Assembly: GCF_021352225.1 (NCBI RefSeq)
Contig: NZ_JAAUVI010000006.1
Span: 62,001-126,000, forward strand
Length of the DNA: 64,000 nt
DNA from: Methylobacterium sp. C25
Lineage (GTDB): Bacteria > Pseudomonadota > Alphaproteobacteria > Rhizobiales > Beijerinckiaceae
Reading direction: 5' to 3'
The notes under the pieces are model-generated. The model ran no database searches. It saw only the letters and a list, made by a program, of their open reading frames with translations, and had not been told where the DNA came from. Of this stretch, positions 47,967 through 50,273 are shown in pieces (position 1 is the first letter of the stretch; each line of letters starts with the position of its first letter). Both the position numbers and the translations under genes were made by a program.

Positions 47967-48351
47967 AGCCAAAACCTCCAATGCGCCGCGAGGCGGCGAG
48001 AGCGATGAGGATTTACGCGAGGTGACACACACGCTGCGTCGCTCGAGTGCGGCGCAGTTACCGGGCGATCCGCGGCCACGCTATCGATTGAAATTTTCTT
48101 GCTGTTCAATATCCGCGAATACAGATCGCAGATTTTCATTCGCTCTCTACAATGTCTGTGATCTGCCGCACACAGGATCGCCAGTGCGGCATTTCCAAAG
48201 GGGGCGTCCCTCGGCTTCAAATTCGCGCCGAATTTGGAGCGATCGCGATTCCATTGGTGTCACCTAGGGGATTACGCTCCACCCTCCAACTTGCCGATCG
48301 GCCTACGCAAGGTACCGCGGGCATCGACACGGTTCGCCGGGGCTGCACGCG

Positions 48352-48413: not shown

Positions 48414-48423
48414 GTCGGCTCGC
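48414..48423 (+). repeat. Left copy of 10-bp direct repeat bounding the AT-rich island
   Basis: GTCGGCTCGC occurs here, just before the base composition drops, and again at 50264-50273, just after the AT-rich segment. It could be a target-site duplication or an attachment core. A chance match of a GC-rich 10-mer is possible. Confidence 0.45.
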
Positions 48424-48674
48424 AAATACAAAAGTAATTTCACAACGAAATCGAAAATAATCAATTTCTCGGTCCTCACCAAGATGATAATTTGCCCAGA
48501 ACAAAAACTTTTACAAACTTTACTTCGGTAAAAATGGAATTTTATACAGTTCAATATCAATATAACATGTAAAAATGACATGTCTTGCCAACTATCAAAT
48601 GTTGTAATAAAAACTATAACGATCAAAAACGCTCATACTGACGTCAAATATTAAATCGCAAGAAAGGCATCATC

Positions 48675-49061
48675 GTGGCAGCGAAGAAGAAAAAGGAGGC
48701 GGTCTCCGTTAGTTTTCACTACCTATCAAGATCAAAAGAATCCGACAAAGGGGATGTAATACATACGGCATTTACAAGTGATAATTTCAACTTACTTGAA
48801 GATAACATGAAAAAACAAACGCCCATCGATTTTCGCGATCAAAAGAGCGTTGATCGACTGCGCTTCCGATCAGAAATTATTCTTCTAAATATTAAACGCG
48901 AGAACCCTCGAACAATAATTGGTACCTTCAAGAACCCCTATTCAGGCCACGCCTTTGAGAACACGCATAAAGGAAAAATACCTGCCGATAGTGTAAGTTT
49001 GCGCCCGTTTCACTTCCTGATCTATCTTTCTGACGAAGGACGTATTTATATTGCGTCTTAG
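48675..49061 (+). CDS. N-terminal fragment (128 residues) of the interrupted island gene
   Basis: From GTG 48675 to the amber stop this fragment encodes a Lys-rich start MAAKKKKEAV and ends DEGRIYIAS. If the amber codon is not suppressed, this is the only product translated from the native start. It has no signal peptide. See the joint pseudogene entry. Confidence 0.5.
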   Translation: MAAKKKKEAVSVSFHYLSRSKESDKGDVIHTAFTSDNFNLLEDNMKKQTPIDFRDQKSVDRLRFRSEIILLNIKRENPRTIIGTFKNPYSGHAFENTHKGKIPADSVSLRPFHFLIYLSDEGRIYIAS

Positions 49062-49112
49062 TATCTTGGTCAGCATGGCGGTTACACAGCCCTGCAGACA
49101 ACTATCCAGAAA

Positions 49113-49613
49113 ATGCTTCCAGATTACGATGACATCAAAGCCCACACGTATAGATTGGATTCAATTAACTTAAGCAAAGCGGAAGCTAAAGAAGTCCGCA
49201 TTACTTTGTCGCGCCACTCATCTTCTATTGCTAAGCCAAATGTATTTTCCCAAAGTTCGATAATTACTTTCAAGAAACATTCGCGCGACGACGGATTTGA
49301 AGGAGAAGTTTCCCAGAAGTTACTGCCATTCTTTGGAAGGACGAATTCGGATATCAAGAGAGTCGTAGCAGAGGTTGTCAACCAAAACGAGCTTATTGCT
49401 GTACAAGATACTGATATCCAGGACTGTACAATTATTGCAAAAGTAAATGGGAGCAAAAAAACTATTTATATGCTCGACAGTGGCAGTTTCGCTACAAAAT
49501 TCCCACTTAACGTAACCCTCGATGCCGATGGGCATCCCGATTTCCAAGAAACTCAAAAGGAAATGCTTCGCGTTCTGGGGACAGAAATAATAGCTAAGAG
49601 CGAAAATGTTTAA
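49113..49613 (+). CDS. C-terminal fragment (166 residues) of the interrupted island gene
   Basis: The first ATG after the amber stop is at 49113, in the same frame as the N-terminal part, with no good ribosome site. The fragment starts MLPDYDDIKAHTYR and ends GTEIIAKSENV. Seventeen codons between the TAG and this ATG are also coding-like, so re-initiation here would yield a truncated domain. See the joint pseudogene entry. Confidence 0.45.
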   Translation: MLPDYDDIKAHTYRLDSINLSKAEAKEVRITLSRHSSSIAKPNVFSQSSIITFKKHSRDDGFEGEVSQKLLPFFGRTNSDIKRVVAEVVNQNELIAVQDTDIQDCTIIAKVNGSKKTIYMLDSGSFATKFPLNVTLDADGHPDFQETQKEMLRVLGTEIIAKSENV

Positions 49614-50226
49614 TATAGGGCAGATCTATAAATATAATCGTGAAACTTTTTACGATTATAATACAGGAGCTCAGCAGTCCCGCGTTTTATACGCGGGCAC
49701 CATTATTTTTATTAGTTTAATATTCGCAACAGGATTTAGTGAGTTAAGCGATAATGCACTTGCCGCCATTATAACAGCGCAATCCATTCTTGCGGGATTC
49801 GGTTTTAATGTTCTCTTTTTTCTCCTATCGAACGCGAACGTTTTGCCTAGCAAGAAAGAGGGGTCAATAGAGCAAGATTTACGCAGAAACAAAATCATAG
49901 CATTGTCTGAAGAGATATTTGGTAATATTTCATATTTTAATCTTGTATCAATATCTTCTGTTTTTCTCTCTTTGCTCATTTTTATACCTAGCTTATCATC
50001 TACTACCACGGAATATTGCGTTAAATATTTGATGGACAATTTTCATGATTATTATGAACAGATTCGAAACTTGGCATTAATCGCAAAAATGGCGCTACGA
50101 GTCTTATTATTTACTATTTTATACATCCTTGTATTCGAAAGTATCTATACCTTTATAAGAACCGTAGTCCGTATTACTTTTTATTTTCGCAAAAGACTGG
50201 AATTTCTACGAACTGCAGATCAATAA
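49606..50226 (+). CDS. Four-helix membrane protein of the AT-rich island
   Basis: This 206-residue protein has four clear transmembrane helices, at about residues 28-46 (VLYAGTIIFISLIFATGF), 52-74, 105-127 and 158-182. A polar loop (about 75-104) follows helix 2 with a Lys/Arg/Glu-rich stretch. The N-terminus (Tyr-rich, NIGQIYKYNRETFYDYN) and the C-terminus (RKRLEFLRT) probably face the cytoplasm. I do not recognise a family. The start overlaps the stop of the soluble partner by eight bases, so the two are translationally coupled. A soluble protein plus a small multi-helix membrane protein is a common plan for membrane-acting phage-defence pairs, but that role is inference. Confidence 0.8.
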   Translation: MFNIGQIYKYNRETFYDYNTGAQQSRVLYAGTIIFISLIFATGFSELSDNALAAIITAQSILAGFGFNVLFFLLSNANVLPSKKEGSIEQDLRRNKIIALSEEIFGNISYFNLVSISSVFLSLLIFIPSLSSTTTEYCVKYLMDNFHDYYEQIRNLALIAKMALRVLLFTILYILVFESIYTFIRTVVRITFYFRKRLEFLRTADQ

Positions 50227-50263
50227 TTACACAAATTTACTGAATGGAGCTAGCTTCGCAGAA

Positions 50264-50273
50264 GTCGGCTCGC
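50264..50273 (+). repeat. Right copy of 10-bp direct repeat bounding the AT-rich island
   Basis: GTCGGCTCGC here matches 48414-48423 exactly and lies 37 bases after the stop of the membrane protein gene, where GC content returns to normal. Confidence 0.45.

Follow-up and report, generated by a model that had tools for sequence, protein, structure and literature searches.

The window, a 64,000-nucleotide stretch of a Methylobacterium sp. C25 contig, carries at positions 48414–50273 an AT-rich islet with two overlapping genes, here called A and B. The G+C content of the islet was 0.34–0.44 (measured over 500 bases at a time) against about 0.61–0.77 in the flanks, and the two-gene module has 39% G+C against 68% in the remainder of the window. 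The islet and its gene content, a soluble protein of some 312 residues, split by an amber codon, and a 206-residue protein with four transmembrane (TM) helices, had been put forward in the original prediction, and both were confirmed, the TM helices by a hydropathy scan. The following features were assigned:

48414..50273, AT-rich islet carrying the module (composition; direct repeat at both ends)
48414..48423, left copy of a 10-nt direct repeat, possible target-site duplication (repeat comparison)
48424..48674, plus strand, AT-rich non-coding stretch 5' of gene A (ORF and promoter listing)
48675..49613, plus strand, gene A, soluble, about 312 codons, candidate sensor, interrupted by TAG (ORF reading; relatives 34–47% identical)
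49059..49061, plus strand, in-frame amber TAG, codon 129 of gene A (sense residue in all nine relatives)
49606..49613, plus strand, A and B overlap by 8 nt (an overlap of this length in 9 of 10 measured pairs)
49606..50226, plus strand, gene B, 206 aa, candidate membrane effector with four predicted TM helices (hydropathy; relatives 24–38% identical)
50264..50273, right copy of the 10-nt direct repeat (repeat comparison)

Gene A starts with a GTG codon at 48675, and apart from the amber codon its frame is open to the stop that ends at 49613; the frame of gene B is intact. Because all nine relatives compared have a sense residue at the column of codon 129, the stop is peculiar to the copy in the window; it may be a sequencing error. 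Since this stop breaks gene A, the A-B system is probably inactive in this genome, unless the codon is read through or is an error. The stretch 48424..48674 presumably holds the promoter of gene A; no promoter-like site was listed there on the plus strand. A 19-nt repeat around GTTCAATATC, its copies 79% alike, was also seen 5' of gene A, at 48095–48113 and 48540–48558, and may be due to chance.

The 10-nt direct repeat GTCGGCTCGC (48414–48423 and 50264–50273) lies exactly at the two ends of the islet, whose coordinates are those given in the original prediction, and is possibly a target-site duplication. In 20,000 random draws from the window, segments of the compared sizes shared a word of at least 10 nt by chance in 3.5% of cases, and the repeat is therefore only suggestive. 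The right flank, a sorbosone-dehydrogenase-like gene together with a cytochrome gene, was kept in all seven sister-species stretches, one of which ends at a contig edge within that gene. None of the seven shows the genes of the left flank, so that comparison does not fix the boundary of the insertion, and no empty site was found among them.

Relatives and pairing of A and B

Gene A was found at 12 other distinct places, where three near-identical Sinorhizobium megaplasmid records, in which tblastn located the pair, are counted as one. Genome scans identified relatives in Pleomorphomonas carboxyditropha (L006), a Cohaesibacter MAG (L007), Rhizobium paknamense (L008), Ensifer LC163 (L009) and Rhizobium RU20A (L010). 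Four relatives are on viral contigs (L011, L012, L013 and L017; the viral scans returned 3, 2, 4 and 1 loci, which overlap), and the others are from an alphaproteobacterium of another family (L018) and from a rhizobial family (L074). Most homologues come from plant- or soil-associated bacteria. A search of a phage collection with A of L013 gave no match.

The pair is present once in the genome of the window. With this genome included in each count, it was found in its own genome only among the 61 relatives searched, and in 3 of 397 genomes of the order, 1 of 385 of the class, 2 of 398 of the phylum and 3 of 297 of a rhizobial family. Gene A was seen in none of 36 other genomes of the same genus; the vertical inheritance of a housekeeping gene, which would have spoken against the original prediction, was thus not observed. 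The distribution of A-B is patchy and the A family is rare. At all nine loci measured, the G+C content of the module was below that of its surroundings. The islet in the window looks horizontally acquired, as had been proposed, and both the patchy distribution and the carriage of relatives by phages or prophages support this.

Gene B directly follows A in all ten testable relatives, nine of them with a full B and one (L017) with B cut by the contig end; in L011 and L012 the contig stops at the end of A, and B cannot be judged. The two genes overlap by exactly 8 nt in nine of ten pairs measured and by 14 nt in L013; in L017, which is outside these ten, B appears to start after the stop codon of A. 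Over 10 taxa the identity matrices of A and B correlate (Mantel r 0.93, none of 5000 permutations as high). The pN/pS values of the rhizobial copies were 0.13–0.44 for A (21 pairs) and 0.15–0.44 for B (10 pairs), of which only the direction is safe as pS is near saturation, and both rhizobial genes are under purifying selection. Since both have conserved relatives elsewhere, A and B can be taken as real genes and not as chance open frames.

No hydrophobic segment was found by the hydropathy scan in any of the 12 A proteins, whose most conserved block covers about residues 80–140. In B, TM regions were called by the same kind of scan (Kyte-Doolittle mean 1.5) and not by a trained TM or topology predictor. 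Four hydrophobic regions were found in eight of nine B proteins, the fourth region of L010 being below the threshold; in the B protein of the window they lie near residues 27–47, 55–75, 113–131 and 157–177. Lysine and arginine residues of B are concentrated at both termini and in the central loop. Of the invariant columns, eight are in TM2, five in the central loop, four in the C-terminus, three in the N-terminus and one in TM4; the two presumed periplasmic loops include none. This pattern fits a predicted orientation with both termini inside and a conserved cytoplasmic face, as would be expected of a partner that binds a cytosolic protein.

Genomic neighbourhoods of the relatives

Eight of the 12 places lie in prophage-like or phage contigs, or nine if L074 is included, which has a tape-measure-like end on reading by eye. 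Among 89 neighbour proteins from 10 loci, six matched a tape-measure family and six a large-terminase family; these matches are counts without names, and tape-measure genes were assigned by layout to the rhizobial loci L002, L008, L009, L010, L011 and L012. In the rhizobial copies, terminase and tape-measure genes are upstream, and about 2.5–4.5 kb separate the tape-measure gene from the module downstream, which occupies a variable end of a compact element. The tape-measure protein was found in 20 viral contigs. Of 19 that were examined, one (L098, the contig of L011) has A, and the others carry different genes at the position of the module; the R. paknamense contig itself is cut before the module in this comparison.

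The compact rhizobial element (L002, L008, L010, L011 and L012) is prophage-like, and its IMG/VR contigs are mostly about 15–17 kb long. There, the terminase genes lead directly into the gene of a long tape-measure protein that has an endolysin-like match, and neither a capsid nor a portal gene intervenes. It is possibly a satellite or a reduced prophage.

The remaining settings are diverse. L013 was read as the structural-gene region of a tailed phage, and L017, which includes a methylase, as an early region of a phage; just before A in L017, a repressor-like helix-turn-helix (HTH) gene and a small gene were identified by eye. In L007, a gene read as encoding a serine recombinase precedes the module, a ThsB (Thoeris) gene is located about 4.3 kb upstream (E 3e-44) and the PDC-S39 candidate defence gene 1.8 kb downstream (E 2e-83). 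Besides the phage-type contigs and L007, two further relatives are in islet or island settings. L018 was read as a bare islet behind uvrB, and in L006 a PDC-S11 gene (E 2.5e-13) precedes the module by about 3.6 kb. An integrase-like gene just upstream in L006 (8159–9747) occupies two overlapping frames and is perhaps a frameshifted integrase. Non-methylase PADLOC matches within about 7 kb were found in only two of the 12 relatives, and the PDC models are themselves candidate defence models. The defence-type association of the original prediction gains support from the phage or prophage carriage and from the L007 copy between the ThsB and PDC-S39 genes, from which we infer defence itself.

Comparison with known families and two-gene systems

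No credible family for A or B was found in Pfam, NCBIfam, PHROGs or PADLOC, nor among PDB sequences. Candidates that were rejected for A are PADLOC PDC-S05 (E 0.015, in one of 12 members, over 58 residues) and PHROGs phrog_30432 and phrog_5061 (E 0.021 and 0.046, respectively). Those rejected for B are Oxidored_q3 (best E 1.4e-4, in four of nine members) and MASE12 (0.0067 in one of nine), which were both read as membrane composition, and PDB matches of the B profile at E 1.1–1.5. B also weakly matched the NCBIfam SLATT_5 model (E 0.3, 10.6 bits against a cut-off of 60 bits) and the PADLOC RTasSLATT model (E 6.3). These matches recall SLATT-type effectors, but B has four TM helices and not two, no nucleotide-signalling partner was seen, and no SLATT model matched above its cut-off. 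No published account of the A-B family was found in the literature searched, which does not prove the family unpublished.

The original prediction had compared the module to Kiwa, which likewise consists of two genes for a four-helix membrane protein and a soluble protein of about 310 residues. The sizes are similar, at about 310 residues for A and 304–308 for KwaB, and about 200 for B and 173–201 for KwaA in the pairs fetched. However, in the Kiwa loci that were read KwaA precedes KwaB, whereas the membrane gene is second in all ten testable relatives, and A-B is mostly phage-carried in the relatives found. KwaB was not confirmed in any viral contig and was found in no phage. The KwaB domain PF16162 (DUF4868) had no match in the 12 A proteins, and a search of PDB sequences with the A profile yielded nothing at E values up to 10, though KwaB chains are present there. 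Kiwa-type pairs were observed in alphaproteobacterial genomes and plasmids (L020, L021, L028–L033); among them is one KwaB-like gene that the megaplasmid of Methylorubrum extorquens AM1 carries.

Profiles of eight KwaB and six KwaA-position proteins were built and compared using hhalign. B was at noise against the KwaA-position proteins, with 42 of 100 shuffles as high. A residues 272–307 aligned with KwaB 253–289, C-terminus to C-terminus (score 29.5, probability 9.6%, 36 columns); none of 100 column shuffles scored as high, and the reversed profile scored 13.6. The non-rhizobial subset of A aligned with the whole KwaB profile in the same register (23.3, none of 40 shuffles as high). When KwaB was split into subsets, 0, 1, 2 and 3 of 40 shuffles were as high in four comparisons. 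For non-rhizobial A, the comparisons with KwaB subsets gave 1 of 40 (in a different register) and 2 of 40; rhizobial A gave 3 of 40 with the gamma/beta subset, again in a different register. Of the single KwaB sequences, four of eight aligned in the C-terminal register and three of eight outscored the best of 123 unrelated proteins. We regard this C-terminal resemblance as a weak lead, not as membership. What stands of the Kiwa analogy is thus the weak KwaB-like C-terminus of A; gene order, the PF16162 domain and a resemblance of B to KwaA do not agree with it.

In a Kiwa-like mode of action, B would sense the membrane perturbation caused by an injecting phage, and A, anchored beneath the membrane, would bind the entering DNA and thereby block replication and late transcription, while the cell survives. 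The similar sizes, the C-terminal alignment with its register kept by non-rhizobial A, and the single KwaB sequences that align in register or exceed the unrelated proteins argue for it. The hhalign probability is low over a short alignment, the signal is uneven among KwaB subsets, neither PF16162 nor the KwaB chains in the PDB match A, B lacks KwaA resemblance and the genes are in the opposite order, and we consider this reading, although it is the main rival of the one that we favour, as a whole unlikely.

RexAB-type prophage exclusion pairs are, in our analysis, a closer match than Kiwa in order, topology and carriage. Published accounts describe lambda RexAB, RexABpp, Sbash gp30/31, CarolAnn gp44/43 and Butters gp30/31 as such pairs (PMC12894663, PMC6426596, PMC6426606, PMC7542560). 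One of them, from a Pseudomonas putida prophage, combines a DNA-binding RexA-like protein with a four-helix membrane-damaging protein and was found by fold-level and not by BLAST similarity (PMC12894663). A-B shares with RexAB-type pairs a cytosolic gene that comes first, a four-helix membrane partner that comes second and overlapping genes (PMC12894663, PMC6426596); RexAB-type pairs are carried by prophages, and most A-B relatives lie in prophage-like or phage contigs. In all ten testable relatives, the soluble gene is directly followed by the membrane gene. The membrane partner of such pairs has cytoplasmic termini and a conserved central cytoplasmic loop, which are also predicted for B from the hydropathy of eight of nine proteins and from the lysine and arginine distribution. 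RexAB-type pairs are characterised, too, by expression with the repressor and by the exclusion of phages through membrane depolarisation; a likely repressor gene adjoins A-B in L017 only, as judged by eye. The broken sensor gene and intact membrane gene of the window have a counterpart in a Rhodococcus orthologue of Butters gp30, for which a nonsense mutation in the sensor gene and an intact membrane gene are reported (PMC7542560).

The likeness is one of plan; sequence similarity of A-B to RexA/DUF4747 or RexB is at or near noise, and the proteins are longer (310 residues for A against 279 for RexA, 192–206 for B against 144 for RexB). No A protein matched PF15931 (DUF4747). In hhalign comparisons, 5 of 100 shuffles were as high as A against lambda RexA, and 1 of 100 as high as A against DUF4747, where the reversed DUF4747 profile also scored as high. 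The control, RexA against DUF4747, failed as well (23 of 100); since this known relation was not recovered, the test is without power. A homology of B to a pooled set of RexB, DUF4747-partner and gp43 proteins (none of 100 shuffles as high) was rejected because column shuffling destroys the helix pattern; against the DUF4747-partner set alone, B was at noise (47 of 100). In a Rhizobiales genome, in Niveispirillum and in Acinetobacter lwoffii (L076, L079 and L080), the DUF4747 gene stands immediately before a membrane-protein gene, and this RexAB-like plan is apparently widespread. We take A-B to be a previously undescribed family of its own with the RexAB plan, absent from the libraries searched, for which we infer an exclusion role.

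Candidate functions of the pair

The reading that we favour, with the balance for and against it about even, is that A-B is a mobile, mostly phage-carried, membrane-coupled two-component exclusion module of the abortive-infection type. In such a module A would act as the sensor and interact with B, and B would depolarise or permeabilise the inner membrane. The infection would thereby be cut short before any progeny form, which would benefit the resident prophage as well as its host. Several observations count against this reading. Prophage cargo need not be defence; the sequence comparisons of A and B with RexA/DUF4747 and its partners are at or near noise; only two of 12 relatives are near non-methylase PADLOC matches, with PDC models that are candidates; and B has a weak Oxidored_q3 match in four of nine members (best E 1.4e-4).

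The origin of most homologues from plant- or soil-associated bacteria, and their placement in one type of element, at its variable end, would also be expected of lysogenic conversion or host-physiology genes of rhizobial elements that are unrelated to phage defence. A-B occurs, however, in unrelated phage contigs too (L013 and L017), and one copy has ThsB and PDC-S39 as neighbours; we hold this explanation to be less likely still than the Kiwa-like one.

Ranking below it, and improbable in our view, is membrane superinfection exclusion, in which B alone, or with A as its chaperone, would block the DNA entry or receptor use of related phages. The prophage-like carriage fits such a role, as does the repressor-type HTH gene read next to the L017 copy. 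The conserved residues of B, however, are in TM2 and the presumed cytoplasmic parts and not in the periplasmic loops, and A, which is strongly conserved and was present in every testable case, is more than a helper.

A toxin-antitoxin pair, with B as a pore toxin restrained by A in an addiction module of prophages and islands, would agree with two overlapping genes, a small membrane protein and mobile carriage, but we find it very improbable since A is large, cytosolic and unlike usual antitoxins, and since a broken A with an open B, as in the window, would carry a cost if B on its own were toxic, even if lost translational coupling could silence B.

We also consider it a long shot that a divergent KwaB-like, DNA-binding A is coupled to a RexB-like effector B, in a phage-carried defence family that would link Kiwa and RexAB-type exclusion.

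If the exclusion module that we favour is indeed a defence system, A-B adds a family that our searches did not find in Pfam, NCBIfam, PHROGs or PADLOC to the few known exclusion pairs of a sensor and a four-helix protein. Intact A-B copies in named rhizobia make the module directly testable. Exclusion pairs keep turning up with almost no sequence similarity to each other, and every further independent family is a help in telling which parts are essential: the fixed gene order, the conserved central cytoplasmic loop and the C-terminus of the sensor.
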